DNA of 64,000 nt from Anthocerotibacter panamensis C109 (GTDB lineage: Bacteria > Cyanobacteriota > Cyanobacteriia > Gloeobacterales > Anthocerotibacteraceae). The stretch spans positions 3,380,667-3,444,666 of the forward strand of contig NZ_CP062698.1 of the NCBI RefSeq assembly GCF_018389385.1. Reading direction: 5' to 3'. Under the pieces are notes generated by a model. The model saw nothing but the letters and a program-made list of their open reading frames with translations, had not been told where the DNA came from and ran no database searches. Of the stretch, positions 45,461 through 56,572 are shown one piece after another. The position numbers and the translations under genes were made by a program. Position 1 is the first letter of the stretch, and each line of letters opens with the position of its first letter.

Positions 45461-46168
45461 ATGCCTGTGTTGCCTTTATTCAGCTTGCTCGCTATGCATA
45501 TCCCAGACGGTCTTTTGAACCTGCCGGTGGCAGGAGTGACCTGGATGATTTCGCTGGGGTTGATTGGGTTGGCCCTCAAGCAGACCAGTCAAGCCTATGC
45601 CGACCGTCTGGTGCCTTTGATGGGCGTGTCTTCGGCGTTTATCTTTGCGGCACAAATGGTCAACTTTCCAGTTCCCGGCGGGAGTTCGGGCCATCTGTTG
45701 GGCGGGACGCTCGCGGCGATTCTGCTTGGTCCCTGGGCGGGGAGTTTGGCTGTGGTCGTAGTCTTCGTGGTTCAGGCGCTGGTCTTTCAGGACGGGGGCA
45801 TAGTGGCGCTGGGAGCCAATATTTTTAATATGGGTCTGGTGGGGACTTTTTTGGGCTACTACGTATATCGGCTGGTGCGGATGGTGCTGGGGGACAAGGG
45901 CTGGTTCGCGCTGGCGGCGGCGACGGGGATTGCTAGTTGGGTCAGTGTGATGATGGCGGCGATGATCACGTCCTTGGAGTTGGCTGGGTCGGGGACGGTG
46001 GCGCTGGGAATTGTTCTACCTGCGATGGTCGGGGTCCATGCCCTGATTGGCTTTGGGGAGGCGGTGTTGACCGTGGGCGTAGTCGGCTTTTTGTGGCGGA
46101 CCCGACCCGATGTGCTCTTTGATCCCCCTGAGATGACAGCATGGGTCACTAAGGAACCGGGTCAATGA
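45461..46168 (+). CDS. cbiM: Cobalt/nickel ECF transporter substrate-capture protein CbiM
   Basis: A 235-residue membrane S-component for Co2+/Ni2+ uptake. The family motif MHIPDG starts at residue 12 (ATG 45494); in CbiM/NikM the N-terminal Met-His-Ile binds the metal, so either that ATG is the start or the 11 hydrophobic residues before it are removed. I report the upstream ATG because GAGGGGA precedes it by ten bases. Other blocks: SSGHLLGGTLAAILLGPWAG and VVQALVFQDGGIVALGANIF. It is first in cbiM-cbiN-cbiQ-cbiO. Confidence 0.9.
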   Translation: MPVLPLFSLLAMHIPDGLLNLPVAGVTWMISLGLIGLALKQTSQAYADRLVPLMGVSSAFIFAAQMVNFPVPGGSSGHLLGGTLAAILLGPWAGSLAVVVVFVVQALVFQDGGIVALGANIFNMGLVGTFLGYYVYRLVRMVLGDKGWFALAAATGIASWVSVMMAAMITSLELAGSGTVALGIVLPAMVGVHALIGFGEAVLTVGVVGFLWRTRPDVLFDPPEMTAWVTKEPGQ

Positions 46169-46485
46169 CAAGACCCAAGCGAAATTGGCTACTGGGGGGG
46201 CTTGTGGTGGCGCTGTTGGTGGCAGCCTTGGTCTCGCCCTGGGCGAGTCAGAACCCGGACGGGTTAAATAAAGTCGCTCAGGACCAGGGTTTTAGTGCAC
46301 AAGCAACGCAGACGCCTGCTGAGCACTTACCCTTCTTCCAAATCTTTGAGAGCTACGCCCTGCGCGGTATCGAGAACCGGGCGGTCGCCAAAGCGCTGGC
46401 AGGGGCGGCGGGGACATTGCTCGTCTTTGGCTTGGCTTGGGGGGTGGGCGCTATGATGCGCCGTTCGCGGGGGGTAGACTCCTGA
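46165..46485 (+). CDS. cbiN: PDGLE-domain protein (CbiN-like component)
   Basis: A 106-residue protein with two hydrophobic helices (about 9-26 and 78-100) around a short periplasmic loop ASQNPDGLNKVAQDQGF, which carries the PDGL signature. In cobalt/nickel transporters this small subunit helps load CbiM. It overlaps cbiM by four bases (ATGA) and its stop overlaps the cbiQ start. Confidence 0.85.
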   Translation: MTRPKRNWLLGGLVVALLVAALVSPWASQNPDGLNKVAQDQGFSAQATQTPAEHLPFFQIFESYALRGIENRAVAKALAGAAGTLLVFGLAWGVGAMMRRSRGVDS

Positions 46486-47264
46486 TGTTCCTTCATGTAC
46501 CGACTTTAGCTTTTGCGACCTGCGCGGACCGCGATACCCCATGGCACCGCTTGCACCCAAGGGCTCGCCTCCTCGCGGCTCTGGTTCTAGTCTTTGGTAT
46601 AGCTTTGATCCCAAATGGCGTCTGGCCAGTTTTGGGGCTCTACGCGGGGGTACTGCTGTTGCTGATTTTGCTGGGGCAGGTGAATCCGGGGCAAATTGTC
46701 CGTAGGCTGGGTGTGGAACTAGCGTTTGTGGGCGTTATTTTGCTGAGTATTCTTTTTTCGGGGAAAGGCACGACTCTTGTCACCCTGGGACCGCTCACGA
46801 TTGCCAAGGGCAGCTTGGTGAATTTTGGCAGTGTGTTGGGTCGGGCGGTGCTCTCTTTGCTGATTTTGAACGTGCTCACGCTCACGACGGCGACCCCTGC
46901 GCTATTGCAAGCGCTGACCGAGTTACGCTGTCCACGGCTGTTGGTCAATGTGTTGGAGTCGATGGTCCGCTACATCGCCGTTTTGGCGGACGAGTTGGCG
47001 ACGATGCGCAGGGCGGCACAGGCGCGCAGTGCGCGTTCCGGGACGCTGTTGGACTGGGGGACGTTAGGGAATATTCTGGGGACGCTCTTTTTGCGGACTT
47101 ATGGGCGAGGAGAACGGATTCACTTGGCGATGCAGGCGCGGGGCTTCACGGGGACATTCCCGACTACAAGGAGTAGTGCTTTTGGCTGGGGGGAGTGGTT
47201 GGTCCTCGCGGCTTCGGCGGCGGTGGTCGTCGGGGCGCAATATTTGGTGTGGGGGCGCGGTTGA
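46485..47264 (+). CDS. cbiQ: ECF transporter transmembrane subunit CbiQ
   Basis: A 259-residue T-component that couples CbiM to the ATPase. It begins MFLHVPTLAFATCADRDTPW at an ATG overlapping the previous stop (TGATG). HRLHPRARLLAALVLVFG is the typical first helix, and coupling motifs appear as ADELATMRRAAQARSAR and RGERIHLAMQARGFTG. The longer frame to 46437 would overlap cbiN and is rejected. Confidence 0.9.
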   Translation: MFLHVPTLAFATCADRDTPWHRLHPRARLLAALVLVFGIALIPNGVWPVLGLYAGVLLLLILLGQVNPGQIVRRLGVELAFVGVILLSILFSGKGTTLVTLGPLTIAKGSLVNFGSVLGRAVLSLLILNVLTLTTATPALLQALTELRCPRLLVNVLESMVRYIAVLADELATMRRAAQARSARSGTLLDWGTLGNILGTLFLRTYGRGERIHLAMQARGFTGTFPTTRSSAFGWGEWLVLAASAAVVVGAQYLVWGRG

Positions 47265-48013
47265 TGCATCCTAACCCGGTTCACCTGGAAGATGTGCAGT
47301 ATACCTATCCCGATGGCACCCCGGCCCTGAAGAAAATAAGCGTGAGCTTTAAGGCGCAAGAGACGGTCGCCATTGTCGGGCCCAATGGTTCGGGCAAGTC
47401 CACGCTGCTGTTGCACCTGAATGGTTTGCTTATGGCCCAAGGGGGGCGCATTCGCATCGCAGACCGTCCGCTGACGGCGGAGCATCTACCTTTTATTCGG
47501 CGTTTTGTGGGGTTGGTCTTTCAGAACCCGGAGGACCAACTTTTTATGCCCACGGTGCGCGAGGACGTCGCCTTCGGTCCGCAGAATCTGGGGGTGAAGG
47601 GGGATGCTTTGCTCAAGCGGGTCCGCGACTGTATGGAACGGGTGGGTTTGGAGCCTGCCCGGTTTCTGGACCGGCAAAGTTTTAACTTGTCGTTGGGGGA
47701 GAAGAAGCGGGTAGCGATGGCGGGTGTCCTCGCTATGGACCCGGAGGTGCTGGCTTTTGATGAACCGTCGGCGGGGCTGGACCCCCGCTCTCGCCGCCGC
47801 CTGATCCGCTTGATCAAGGAACTCCCGCAGACGAAGCTCATCGCCACCCATGACCTGGATCTGGCGCTCGAGACCTGTACGCGGACGGTCCTCCTGGAAG
47901 GCGGCGTAGTCATCGCGGACGGTCCTACCGAGCATTTGTTGCGTGACCGAGTTTTTCTGGAGACCCACGGATTGGAATTGCCGCTGTGTTTGATGAAGCC
48001 TGAAGTTCCCTAG
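47264..48013 (+). CDS. cbiO: ECF transporter ATPase CbiO
   Basis: A 249-residue ABC ATPase. Walker A is GPNGSGKST, the Q-loop is GLVFQNPEDQLFMPTV, the signature is NLSLGEKKRVAMAG (a G-E-K-K variant), and Walker B is VLAFDEPSAGLD with H-loop IATHDLDLALE. The ATG overlaps the cbiQ stop (TGATG). The four genes form a complete group I ECF importer. Confidence 0.93.
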   Translation: MHPNPVHLEDVQYTYPDGTPALKKISVSFKAQETVAIVGPNGSGKSTLLLHLNGLLMAQGGRIRIADRPLTAEHLPFIRRFVGLVFQNPEDQLFMPTVREDVAFGPQNLGVKGDALLKRVRDCMERVGLEPARFLDRQSFNLSLGEKKRVAMAGVLAMDPEVLAFDEPSAGLDPRSRRRLIRLIKELPQTKLIATHDLDLALETCTRTVLLEGGVVIADGPTEHLLRDRVFLETHGLELPLCLMKPEVP

Positions 48014-49488: not shown

Positions 49489-51900
49489 ATGAAGATCTCG
49501 TATAATTGGCTTAAAGAACTGGTAGCGTTTAATCTTACTCCAGCGGAGTTGGCTGAACGTCTAACGCTGGTCGGCTTTGAAGTCGAAGACATGGTAGACC
49601 TCAAAACCTGGGCACAGGGTGTGGTTGTGGGGCAGATTCTCGCTTGCGAACCGCATCCTCAAGCGGACAAGCTCAAAGTGTGTACGGTGGATGTGGGACA
49701 GCCCGAGCCGCTTACCATCGTCTGTGGAGCCGCTAATGCCCGCGCTGGAATTCTGGCTCCGGTGGCCTTGGTAGGGACTTATCTGCCCCATAAGAGCCTC
49801 ACCATTGAAGTCGCCAACAAACGCGGAGTGGTCTCTTCAGGCATGATCTGCTCGCTGGAGGAGTTGGGGCTTGTGCGCAAGTCCGAGGGCATTCATGTCT
49901 TTGACCAGGAACTGACTCTGGGCGCAGATGTGCGGCCTTTCTTGGGGTTGGATGATGTCATTCTCGATGTCACATCCACTGCCAATCGAGCCGATGCCCT
50001 CTCCATGGTCGGGATTGCCCGAGAAGTCGCTGCGTTTACAGGGAGTATACTGCGGCTGCCGGTGGCTGAGGGGCCTTGGGTTCCTGCTGGGGCCTTTCGC
50101 CTTGCGATTGACACAAGCCATGCCTGTCCCGCCTATTTCGCTACTGTGGTGGGCGGGCTTACGGTCGCTCCTTCGCCACCGTGGCTAGCCCAAAAAGTCG
50201 AACGCGCTGGGATGCGCTCTATCAACAACGTGGTAGATATCACCAACCTCGTGCTCCTGGAGTGGGGACAGCCGCTGCACGCTTTTGACCGGGACTTGCT
50301 CCCCGGCAGTACTCTAGGGGTGCGTTTGGCTCGAGAGGGTGAAGTCCTCACTACTTTAGACAGTGTGACCCGGACGCTAGTCCCTCAAAATCTGCTCATT
50401 ACGCATGACGACCAGCCGGTAGCGCTCGCCGGGGTGATGGGTGGGGCTGCCACGGAGGTCAACAGCGCAACGAAGGCGATTCTTCTGGAAGCAGCCCTCT
50501 TCGACCCGGCAGCCGTGCGCCGCTCTGCCCGTGCTCAGGGTCTGCGCTCCGAAGCCTCCGCCCGCTATGAACGAGGCGTGGATTTCTCTGCCCTAGAGAC
50601 CGCCCTCAACCGTGCGCTCGCGCTCTTGGCAGAAGTAGCGGGTGGGACCATCCTCGCTCAAGACCGGGTGGACTACCGTACCCAGCAGAGTCCGTCTATT
50701 GTGCTGCGCCCGCAGCGGGTGACCCATGTCCTGGGCCGAGATGTGGGGCGCGAAGCCATTGAGACGAGCCTCAAGAACTATGGTTTTGATGTGGACCCGG
50801 TTGGGATGGATTATCAGGTACGGGTACCGGGCTTTCGGGCGAGAGATATCCAAGGGGAGATTGACCTCATCGAAGAGATTGCCCGCTGGGTGGGCTTTGA
50901 CCATTTCCCGCCCACCTTGCCGCAAAGTCCCCTGTTGGGCCAACTCGCCCCTGAAGAAACGATTATGCGCCGGATTCGAGCCTTACTGCGCGCTCAGGGG
51001 TTGACGGAGCTTTACCACAATTCCTTTACCCCTCTCAGGAGTGGCGAAGAGCTCTCCACCAAACGCGCTCAGGCTGAAGCCCGTTTTGGCAGCCAACAGA
51101 GCCAAGTCATCCTCGTCAATCCCCTCAACGCCGACTACGGGGCACTGCGTTCGGAGCTCTTGGCAGGGCTTTTTGCGGCCTATGGCTACAATCTCGACCA
51201 GGGCAATGGTCCGCTCAATGGCTTTGAATTGGGTCGCGTCCTCTATACGGTGGGCACGGAGATCCGTGAGGTGGACCATTTGGGGGCTATCTTGGGTGGC
51301 GATCCGCTTCAAGGCGATTGGCAGGACTATAGCCGCCCTTGGGATTTCTTTGCCGTCAAGGGCATCTTAGAAAATCTGGCTCAGGGTCTCGGTCTGAGTT
51401 TCAGCTTCGATGCGACGGACGAAAAGCCGCGTCTGCACCCCGGACGGAGTGCGCGCCTGACGCTTGCTGGAGAAGACCTGGGTTTTGTCGGACAGGTCCA
51501 TCCGCGTCTGGCTAAAGTCGAAGGCTTCCCCGAAGCGACATTTGTGTTTGAGTTAGATCTTGAAGTCCTAGTCCGCAACAGTCTGCACCGGGCCTATCGC
51601 TACCGTTCCTTCTCCAGCTATCCTGCACTAGACCGGGACTTGGCCTGCTTTGTTGCTCGGACATACACGGTTGCCCAACTGACAGAGGCGATCCGTATGA
51701 GTGCCGGAGACCTCTTGGAGTCGGTCGTACTCTTCGACGAATACACCGGACCTAATGTCCCCCCAGACCAACGCTCCCTCGCCTTCCGGTTGGTCTACCG
51801 CGCTGCGGACCATACCCTTAACGATGCCGAAGTCAGCACCCATCAGGAGCGCGTGCGCAATACTTTGGTCGCGCAGTTCGCAGCTCAACTGCGCAGTTGA
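49489..51900 (+). CDS. pheT: Phenylalanyl-tRNA synthetase beta subunit
   Basis: The 803-residue beta chain. It has an N-terminal tRNA-binding OB domain (VVVGQILACEPHPQADKLKV), B3/B4 with GMRSINNVVDITNLVLLEWG, B5, the catalytic-like module and a C-terminal FDX-ACB anticodon-binding domain near YRSFSSYPALDRDLACFVA. It works as an alpha2-beta2 tetramer with PheS, which is not adjacent. Start ATG 49489 has only a weak ribosome site. Confidence 0.96.
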   Translation: MKISYNWLKELVAFNLTPAELAERLTLVGFEVEDMVDLKTWAQGVVVGQILACEPHPQADKLKVCTVDVGQPEPLTIVCGAANARAGILAPVALVGTYLPHKSLTIEVANKRGVVSSGMICSLEELGLVRKSEGIHVFDQELTLGADVRPFLGLDDVILDVTSTANRADALSMVGIAREVAAFTGSILRLPVAEGPWVPAGAFRLAIDTSHACPAYFATVVGGLTVAPSPPWLAQKVERAGMRSINNVVDITNLVLLEWGQPLHAFDRDLLPGSTLGVRLAREGEVLTTLDSVTRTLVPQNLLITHDDQPVALAGVMGGAATEVNSATKAILLEAALFDPAAVRRSARAQGLRSEASARYERGVDFSALETALNRALALLAEVAGGTILAQDRVDYRTQQSPSIVLRPQRVTHVLGRDVGREAIETSLKNYGFDVDPVGMDYQVRVPGFRARDIQGEIDLIEEIARWVGFDHFPPTLPQSPLLGQLAPEETIMRRIRALLRAQGLTELYHNSFTPLRSGEELSTKRAQAEARFGSQQSQVILVNPLNADYGALRSELLAGLFAAYGYNLDQGNGPLNGFELGRVLYTVGTEIREVDHLGAILGGDPLQGDWQDYSRPWDFFAVKGILENLAQGLGLSFSFDATDEKPRLHPGRSARLTLAGEDLGFVGQVHPRLAKVEGFPEATFVFELDLEVLVRNSLHRAYRYRSFSSYPALDRDLACFVARTYTVAQLTEAIRMSAGDLLESVVLFDEYTGPNVPPDQRSLAFRLVYRAADHTLNDAEVSTHQERVRNTLVAQFAAQLRS

Positions 51901-51969
51901 TACTTCAGCCAGAGACCGCTGAGCCTGTGGCTAATGCTGGCAGCCAAACAGTTTGGGGACGAGGATGCG

Positions 51970-54801
51970 CTATAGCTCTTGAGGTGTTTTTGGGAAAACT
52001 CCGTACAAAGCATCTACCATTTGATTCAGTTCTTGGTAGGTGGTGCGGATGCGTTAAGATTTCCACTTTAGTCTCTGCATAGGTGGTGAATAACTGTTGA
52101 ATACTTGCCTCGGTCTTAGGAATGGTCCCGATAGTCAGCAGATCGGTCCAGGTTCGGGCTTGAGGAATAAACTGGGGAAGATAATACTTCAAGTAGTCTA
52201 GGACAAGAAGAGAATCTGATCGTAGTAGAGCTTCTCTTCCATTAAAGAGTACATTATCTTTGATCCTTAATCTGCTGAGTGGTTGATTGCGATTACCAAT
52301 GACCTCAAAGTGAAAATTCTCAGCATTGAGAAAGTTCCAGCTTGGGAGTCTAAGCTTAGCGAAAATTTGCAAGAAATCTACTTTAACTACCGGAGTTTTG
52401 TCATCATAGTCAAATTTAATAACCGCTCCTGATTGACGTAAATGATATAACTCCCAATTCCATGCCAGAAGCTTATTTGTCTGCTCAATGAAGATTTGTT
52501 GTTCTTCAAGTGAGATAACTTTGATAGGTAATTTACGAAAATCATCGGGATGAAATCTACCAGCTCGTGCACTGATAGTTATATTTTTTAGAAAATTATC
52601 AGCCCAGCTAGAGTTGATAATTGCTAGTAAATAGGCCAAACCATACTTGAGAGATGTAGGAGACTTTCTTTTAACTTCATTCGAATCTACATTTCTGTTA
52701 GAAACATTGGTGAGTCGGTGCCACGGAAGAAAGACAATAACACTATGGTTACAGTAAAGATGAGCGTTTGCTTCATCTGCAACGTCTAAAAATGTATGTG
52801 AAGTCTCTCCGCGCAAAATCTTGGGAGAAGTATACAATTCAGGAAAGGTAGATCTACGAACTTTCACAGGTGCTCTTAGATTTTCCCCATATTCAAGGTA
52901 TCTAATTTCATTGATTGAAAATCTCTCGATATCTTTACCTTCTATATATCTGACCGGGTGTGAGTCGTCCTTATTCTTTGAGATAAGATCATCTTTTGTA
53001 AATTCATTGGGGAATTTTGTTTCATGGCTATTTAAAACCATTCCAACGCTAATATAAGTTATTTCATCGAGTAAAACCACATCTTCGATGTCAGTATCAA
53101 TACTATATTTCCTGAAAATATCTTCACCCAAAGATAGTTGATTAATAAAATTCTGGAAGGCAATTTCTTGAATATTCTCTTGATTTTCGTGAAAGCGCTG
53201 TGTAGTTAAGCTAGATTCTGTAGGTAACTCATTTTTAGCAATAAAAATTACATTGAAAACAGCAGCGTCTCGGAAAAGCTTTAAGCCCCCAAGAAAATCA
53301 ATTTGAAAAACTGTTAATTCATTACAAAGCATTTTTCGGGATTCTTGGGCATATGTAGCTACTGAGTAAGCATCAGATATAATTATTCCTAAAATTCCCG
53401 ATTCTGATTTAAGAAGGTTTTTCCCTAATTCTATGAATGGAATAAACAAATCCCATTTTTTGTAAAGAGTTTCAAATCTACCTTGACGAATAATTTCTCT
53501 TCTATATTCATCCACTCCCGGCTCATCAGCCCGGACATACGGTGGATTACCTACCACAAAATCAAATCCGTCAGCGAAAGCTCCAGAACGCTCTTTAATC
53601 TGAGAGACAATCGAGAGTTCAGAGTCTACAACCGCACTGAGTAGGGGCGTGCGAATATTTTCACCTTTGGGCAGCAATAATGAATCCGTATTATAAATAT
53701 GGAAGCGATCAATCACACACTCCTGCATTCGACCATGATTTTTTAACTCTTTTAGAAGATCAATAACTTGAATAAGCAAGTTTGTCTCAGCCAAATAACA
53801 AGCAAAGGGATTGATATCAAGGGAGAAAAATGAATTTTTTACCTGTTGAATTACAGTGGGAATATTATCAATTGGAATGTGACCACTTGTAGGATTGCGG
53901 TAGGAGTTTATCAGTCGATGTGCAGCATGAACTAGAAAACTACCGGAGCCACCCGCCAAATCTAAAAGCTTCTTCCCTCGAATATCGGGATTGTCTGAAG
54001 TATAGCCAATCGAGTCAAGAATATACTTAACTACATTGGGGGGTGTGAAGTAGCGACCTTGCTCATGTTTGCCTTCTTTAACGTAGCGTCCATAAACCAT
54101 GCCGATAATATCGCTATCGATTTCCTCCAAATTAAATCGATTAAGGATTTCTAGAATTCTCAGTAAGATATTAGTCCCCATACGATACCAATTAAAGAGA
54201 TTTTCATTACTAAAGAAATGGGCATAGATACTTTGTGCTGAACGATAAGCCACTTCTAATAAATAGTCATACCCCATACCTTGTGCAAAGTCTAAATACC
54301 TCGGTACCACTGTTTCTAGCCAGTACTTAAAACCACCATCCGAGAACTTCCGATGGATCAAGCCCTTATCTCCACAGATACGAACCATAAGCAATCTAAT
54401 AACATAGACATAGGCAGTCTGACGACCAAATTCTGATTTTAGTTTCTGCTCATCGGCTTCTTGTAAAACTGTCTTTGTGATCAAGTTCTTCCAGGAAGTA
54501 AAGTATTGATCCGTCCGAATAGCATATTCATAGGCTTGATTTTGCTTCACCTGCCACGCTTGCCACTCAAGTACAAAGCGCTCATATTCCTTGAGAGATT
54601 CTACGAAACCATCCCCTAGTTTTGTAGTCTTAGTTTGAGGTTTTACCTTTATTCCTAATTCTTTTCGCTCTGCCTCAGAGACTGGATTAAGTAGATCTAG
54701 CTGACTAGACTTATTCCCTTTTTGCTCTTTTTCGTCCTTGCGCGCTAATACTTTTTCTCGATAAGCTGTAAGCGTCTAAGAAATTTTTGACCAAGAATCA
54801 T
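51970..54801 (-). pseudogene. Eco57I-type N6-adenine DNA methyltransferase, broken by two indels
   Basis: A large AT-rich gene. The intact middle reads as one frame from about 54777 to 52060. Motif I is LLDLAGGSGSFLVHA, catalytic motif IV is FVVGNPPYV, and the target-recognition part follows. The true start looks like ATG 54801 (MILGQKFLRRLQ), which overlaps the upstream small gene by ATGA, but the frame shifts at an A5 run (54752-54756). Near 52053-52058 a second shift replaces the natural end; the other frame gives MVDALYGVFPKTPQEL and stops at 51970. With both indels repaired the gene is 943 residues. The longest unbroken version (GTG 54550 to stop 51905) has a foreign C-terminus. It may be decayed, phase-variable, or an assembly error. 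Confidence 0.75.
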
Positions 54802-54976
54802 GATAGATTCTCTATTACTTCAATGGCCTTCCGCAAATCCTCAATGAGCAACTCATCAAATCTATCGGTATTTTTTTGGTCCGAGCTGCTTCCAACCATA
54901 CTCCCTGTTCCTGCCCAATTTTTTTAATTAGGTTCTCAAGACCTTCAAAGGAATGCTCTGGGGGCTTAGGTACCAT
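54798..54976 (-). pseudogene. Small gene upstream of the methyltransferase, frameshifted at A7
   Basis: From ATG 54976 the protein begins MVPKPPEHSFEGLENLIKKI, then GQEQGVWLEAARTKK; at an A7 run (54871-54877) the frame is lost, and the next frame continues NTDRFDELLIEDLRKAIEVI and ENLS, ending in a stop that overlaps the methyltransferase ATG (ATGA). Restoring one A gives 59 residues. I do not recognise the family. Position and overlap suggest it belongs to the same restriction-modification unit. Confidence 0.5.
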
Positions 54977-55123
54977 GAATTTATAACAGGCTCAGGTCAG
55001 ACCCGATGTTATCACAGAAACCTAACCTTGGGGACGGCTCTACAATTTCTCCGGGTCCAGACCCAACGCCTGGAGGCATGAACGCAAACGGTCCATTTCT
55101 TGGGCGGCTTACCGGGCTGACGC

Positions 55124-56572
55124 TCAGCCCATTTCTGGCCTCTGTTGATGCCACTCTGTCGCCTGTTCGTAGGCATAGGCGACCTGAAGCAGTTTGGACT
55201 CCTCCAAAGGAGCGCTCATGATCTGCAAACCAATCGGCAAGCCCTGTTCGTCAAAGCCGCAGGGGATGCTGATGCCCGCAGTTCCTGACATATTGAGCGG
55301 AATGGTGCAAATATCCGAGAGGTACATGCTCAAGGGGTCTGCTTTATCCCCGAAGCGGAAGGCGGTGGTGGGAGCGGTAGGACCGACCAAGACATCAAAC
55401 TGTTCAAAAGCCTTGGTGAAATCCTCTTTGATCAGGGTCCGTACTTTTTGTGCCTTGAGGTAGTAGGCGTCGTAGTAACCTGCTGAGAGCGCGTAGGTGC
55501 CAAGCATGATCCGGCGCTTGACCTCGCGCCCAAAGCCCTGGTTCCGGCTCTGCTCGTACATACTGAGTAACGACTGGGCCTCCTCCGCCCGAAAGCCGTA
55601 CCGGACCCCGTCATAGCGCGCCAGATTTGCCGAAGCCTCCGAGGGCGCAATAATGTAGTAGGTGGGCAATCCATAGGCAAAACGAGGGCAACTGACCTCC
55701 CGGACTTCAGCCCCCAAAGCCCTTAAAACGTCCAAAGCTTTCTCAATCGCGGCCCGGACCGGCCCACTGATCCCTTCTCCAAAAAATTCCTTGACCAAGC
55801 CGACCTTAAGGCCCTTGACCTCCGGGATGAGCGCTTGACTATAGTCGGGGATTTCGACCTTGAGGCTGGTGGAATCCATCGGGTCATAACCGGCTATCGC
55901 CTGCAAAACTATGGCACAGTCCTCCACTGTCGCGGCGAAAGGACCAATCTGGTCCAAGGACGAAGCAAAAGCAACCAACCCGTAGCGCGACACCAACCCG
56001 TAGGTCGGCTTGAGCCCTACCACCCCGCAAAAAGCAGCGGGTTGACGAATCGATCCCCCCGTATCCGAACCCAGAGCAGCGACCACTTCCTGCGCTGCCA
56101 CCGCTGCTGCGGACCCGCCCGAAGACCCGCCCGGAACCGTATCCAAATTCCAAGGGTTGCGCGTCGGGCCATAGGCAGAGTTCTCCGTCGAGGAGCCCAT
56201 CGCAAATTCATCCAGGTTGGTCTTACCCACCAAAACTGCTCCCGCCGCTTCAAGCTTCAGGTTGACCGTGGCTTCGTAGGGGGCGATATAGCCTGCAAGG
56301 ATTTTGGAGGCGCAGGTAGTCGGGGCATTGGTGGTGCAGAGGTTGTCCTTGAGGGCCATAGGAATCCCGGCTAGCGGACCTAGCGTTTCGCCTCGGGCTA
56401 GCGCCGCATCGACTGCCTGTGCTTGTTGGAGCGCCCGCTCCTGCATCAGACACAAAAAACTATGCACCCGAGGCTCGATCCCGGCAATGCGCTCATAATA
56501 GGTCTGGGCAATCTCGACGGCGCTCCGTTCGCGTTTGACCAGTTGCTCGTGCAGGGTGCGAATCAGGCTCAT
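55124..56572 (-). CDS. gatA: Glutamyl-tRNA(Gln) amidotransferase subunit A
   Basis: A 482-residue amidase that supplies ammonia from glutamine to convert Glu-tRNA(Gln) to Gln-tRNA(Gln), acting with GatB and GatC. The amidase triad is visible: Lys75 (MALKDNLC), cis-Ser150 and nucleophile Ser174, in [16 protein letters not shown] and [20 protein letters not shown]. The C-terminal region includes [14 protein letters not shown]. GatB and GatC are not next to it here. Confidence 0.96.

Follow-up and report, generated by a model that had tools for sequence, protein, structure and literature searches.

Fused type IIG enzymes and their cyanobacterial relatives

The bifunctional Thermus enzymes of the TspDTI/Tth111II subfamily are described as carrying a nuclease, a helical region, a methyltransferase and a target-recognition region, in this order (PMC3384240). 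Cj0031 of Campylobacter jejuni is a fused type IIG protein of 1243 residues that is phase-variable through a G9/G10 polyG tract (PMC4889913). The window analysed here, a stretch of 64,000 nucleotides from Anthocerotibacter panamensis C109, contains an AT-rich island whose relatives in Pseudanabaena and Nostocaceae are a single fused type IIG-like protein of ~1250-1300 aa. This protein consists of an N-terminal PD-(D/E)XK-type nuclease, a helical linker, an Eco57I/TaqI-type adenine methyltransferase and a target-recognition region (TRD). The two Pseudanabaena copies each encode a single protein, 1247 residues long in L002 and 1250 in L004, and in Nostocaceae the open frame has 1299 codons. Together, the Pseudanabaena and Nostocaceae copies (the latter L003, L006-L008 and L048) share 57-67% identity with the methyltransferase core of the window and 40-52% with its TRD. 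L002, L004, L006, L007 and L048, in which both ends are sequenced, are full-length and have nuclease and linker in one frame, unlike the window; L003 and L008 are cut off at contig borders. The copy of genome G386 (L055 with L056) has the architecture of the fused relatives, shares 62% identity with the window in the core and is full-length apart from a contig break. It resides at a different locus, and its TRD is only 34.5% identical to that of the window.

A PD-x14-ExK motif, such as a PD-(D/E)XK nuclease should have, is invariant in the N-terminus of all five relatives' sequences. No nuclease match was found when the N-terminus of the cyanobacterial relatives was compared with Pfam, or when the nuclease profile was compared with solved structures. 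A Thermus aquaticus homologue encoded on pTA69 (WP_003049279.1), which is 30% identical to L002 over 1100 residues including the N-terminus, shows HSDR_N_2 / PDDEXK_3 matches at its N-terminus that are weak and below the curated Pfam cut-offs. Judged by the motif, its position and the weak Thermus matches, the N-terminal domain of the relatives is probably a PD-(D/E)XK-type nuclease. Structure predictions were of unusable quality, with pLDDT values of 37 for the nuclease and 32 for the methyltransferase.

Two further observations concern the relatives. The Anabaena 54 copy (L003) and the G149 copy (L049) are 79% identical in the core and only 45% in the TRD, and the TRD of L003 is nearer to that of Pseudanabaena (L002, 60%), which may be read as a sign of TRD exchange among these fused type IIG-like proteins. 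The copy in genome G405 was considered as an independent broken copy and rejected, the apparent stop (L057:4543-4553) being an assembly N-gap.

Pieces of one gene between pheT and gatA

The host genome is a single contig of 4,187,797 bases, and the island lies on its minus strand between two intact genes, pheT for the phenylalanyl-tRNA synthetase beta subunit (49489-51900, plus strand) on the left and gatA for amidotransferase subunit A (55124-56572, minus strand) on the right. In tblastn searches with the relatives' proteins, all pieces of the island, each on the minus strand, map in order onto one fused protein. The sequence-only reading had proposed a pair of genes sharing an ATGA overlap, one for a 59-residue unknown protein and one for a methyltransferase; both turn out to be parts of one fused gene. 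A separate 59-residue gene was rejected, as its two halves, which had no Pfam match on their own, align to the linker of the fused protein (residues ~188-240), split over two frames. The first half (54875-54958) corresponds to the relatives' residues ~188-218 and, together with the adjoining piece, is 32-38% identical to five relatives (tblastn, E 1e-5 to 9e-4). The linker continues in another frame at 54810-54899, corresponding to residues ~210-240 with 43-52% identity in tblastn. At the junction at 54801-54810, the gap between matched residues in tblastn and alignment shows that ~77 codons (relatives' residues ~241-317) are gone, and the ATGA at 54798-54801 adjoins the site of this loss. Since the 59-residue protein is linker and ~77 codons are missing beside the ATGA, the overlap is an accident of decay. 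It is followed by the weakly conserved end of the linker (54720-54807), which contains a second frame change in frameshift-aware alignments to L002 and L004.

The methyltransferase and TRD part occupies 52058-54757 in one open frame, corresponding to the relatives' residues 327-1223 with ~60% identity. It contains GRYFTP, DLAGGSGSF and NPPY motifs and matches the Pfam families Eco57I (PF07669, E 1e-19), N6_Mtase (PF02384) and TaqI_C (PF12950), all above cut-off. NPPY and GGSGSF are invariant between the window and its relatives, which marks this part as a gamma-class adenine methyltransferase of the Eco57I/TaqI type. The conserved C-terminal tail (51997-52050, relatives' residues 1230-1247) follows in another frame, as seen in the alignment and in tblastn with 67% identity over 18 residues. 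The Pfam and PADLOC matches of the gene are consistent with type II/IIG enzymes, and membership in BREX (PglX), MAD2 or DISARM was rejected because the NCBIfam scores are far under the cut-offs (58 bits vs 400; 37 vs 720) and the flanks are housekeeping genes. Elsewhere in the host genome, there are two more methyltransferase genes of the Eco57I family, L042 (G000:C1:644508-644933) and L043 (3499392-3499610), whose open frames comprise 702 and 550 codons.

In addition to the ~77 linker codons, residues 1 to ~187, which comprise the nuclease, are missing from the window; neither loss had been noticed from the sequence alone. A search of the rest of the genome with the first 239 residues of L002 did not find the nuclease either (best E 0.35). 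A type IIG enzyme carries its nuclease in the same polypeptide and in a single continuous reading frame. The relatives have the PD-x14-ExK nuclease; the window does not, and its frame changes three times.

Frame changes and A-runs

The sequence-only reading described three single-base indels, at an A7 run, at an A5 run and near 52053-52058, with alternative frames continuing beyond each. Alignment and tblastn with the relatives bear out the three breaks and the continuity across them, but not their uniform nature: near 52053-52058, the best alignment has a 4-residue gap, i.e. a small deletion, in addition to a frame change. The first change lies at or near the A7 run at 54871-54877. The second lies at or near the A5 run at 54752-54756 and can be placed only within ~54720-54757, because the linker is poorly conserved there and the two relatives align differently.

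A-runs in such a gene had suggested phase variation, in which slippage at a run would switch the methyltransferase on and off as in Cj0031, and type IIG genes do offer this precedent (PMC4889913). The runs of seven and five are, however, short compared with the G9/G10 tract of Cj0031 (PMC4889913), and their number is that expected by chance: the island has 18, 6 and 2 A/T runs of at least 5, 6 and 7 bases, against 16.5, 5.7 and 2.0 expected. Neither L002 nor L004 carries a comparable run in the DNA homologous to the A7 site. Two runs and a break outside any run would need to be in frame simultaneously and, as the nuclease is missing, a change in run length could not restore a type IIG enzyme. 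The long, over-frequent repeat in an otherwise intact frame that characterizes phase-variable genes is therefore not what this locus has, and phase variation is extremely improbable here.

The same two sites bear on the possibility that the gene is intact and was misread during sequencing or assembly. Both frame changes at or near A-runs are in the direction expected from homopolymer under-calling, so that either one could be due to sequencing error. Base-calling does not explain the absence of ~187 N-terminal and ~77 linker codons or the short 3' deletion, the neighbouring pheT and gatA are intact, and the window has many other A/T runs of at least seven. The deletions thus exclude error as the sole cause, and an error in an otherwise intact gene is very improbable.

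State of the methyltransferase part

The open methyltransferase frame has 906 codons and continues into the host flank to 51905. It has no ATG, GTG or TTG in its first 75 codons; the first in-frame start is GTG 54550, from which the frame would span 51905-54550, and no Shine-Dalgarno site was found before it. At columns that do not vary among the other copies, the window departs at 28 of 261, and the complete-looking copy of G386, the nearest relative, at 31 of 264. These similar values indicate similar constraint over most of the branch, so that decay would be recent or incomplete, or the methyltransferase part may still be kept. In a branch-specific codon model, synonymous sites were saturated and omega was not estimable.

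The long open frame and the unremarkable number of departures count against a dead gene, and the methyltransferase part may still be under selection. Freedom to decay might be confined to the short 5' remnant, where two of the three frame changes fall. On these grounds, together with the intact motifs, the locus might encode an orphan methyltransferase that lost its nuclease and is still translated and methylating adenine. Such a protein would have to start at GTG 54550, or arise through ribosomal frameshifting at the A-run joining the short frame that begins with ATG 54801 to the methyltransferase frame. The lack of an early start codon and of a Shine-Dalgarno site speaks against it, as does the conserved C-terminal tail, which is out of frame while the current frame runs into host sequence. 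We regard an orphan enzyme as unlikely, and slightly more so the specific course in which loss of the nuclease left a solitary methyltransferase that continues to be produced via an unusual internal start or A-run frameshifting. If it were true, this deep-branching cyanobacterium would have a newly domesticated epigenetic mark. A dead gene is the most likely state, with the solitary methyltransferase as a minority possibility.

Probable lateral origin

The island was correctly recognized as AT-rich from its letters. In 100-base bins, its GC content is 0.29-0.47 inside ~52000-55000 vs 0.50-0.60 outside, and its GC3 of 0.33 compares with 0.63 and 0.67 in the flanking genes and with 0.28 and 0.31 in the Pseudanabaena copies. 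At E 1e-50, matches occur in only 5 of 386 cyanobacterial genomes, representing 3 of 143 genera. The earlier suggestions of lateral transfer and of gene decay are both supported, the first because of the composition and the patchy distribution and the second because of the lost domains. An AU test does not reject joint inheritance of the window and G386 copies (p 0.37), which leaves room for a common origin of the two. Lateral acquisition from an AT-richer, probably cyanobacterial source is likely, in one event or several. In G386, which alone represents the same family among the other genomes analysed, pheT is followed by a different gene. A scan of the flanks for repeats or target-site duplications gave none that was convincing.

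Two features near the island were seen in passing. The sequence at 55047-55123, immediately downstream of gatA, may be a small intergenic repeat: two short stretches of the genome near 2.339 Mb resemble it with 75-94% identity. At 45461-48013, the plus strand carries a compact cluster whose translations, by eye, resemble those of a cobalt ECF transporter in the order CbiM, CbiN, CbiQ and CbiO.

A remnant in comparison with known systems

With good confidence, we interpret the island as the truncated, frameshifted remnant of one type IIG gene that was acquired from AT-richer, probably cyanobacterial DNA and is being lost. In the proposed order of events, a fused type IIG gene would have arrived from such a source and come to sit between pheT and gatA. 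The nuclease would then have been lost by truncation at the 5' end and a large part of the linker by an internal deletion; what remained would have been broken by frame changes, both within the linker and at the C-terminus, so that presumably no functional enzyme is made now. In intact relatives, the TRD would select the site at which the methyltransferase modifies an adenine of one strand, and unmethylated DNA would be cut at a distance by the nuclease, as is usual for this class. Reading the locus as a remnant corrects a plausible annotation error, since the small "unknown protein" and the methyltransferase gene overlapping it are both fragments of a single degraded enzyme. It also documents one more case in which a restriction-modification gene acquired laterally is being lost, with the nuclease gone and the methyltransferase mostly readable. 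The case is otherwise ordinary, a remnant of a known kind.

Cj0031 and the ancestor of the window copy have in common that they are fused type IIG genes. In Cj0031, the tract switches an otherwise complete gene, whereas the window copy has lost whole domains. By description, the domain order of the fused relatives is that of the TspDTI/Tth111II enzymes, from which the window copy differs in having no nuclease. It is thus not a type IIG enzyme but a remnant derived from a gene for one.
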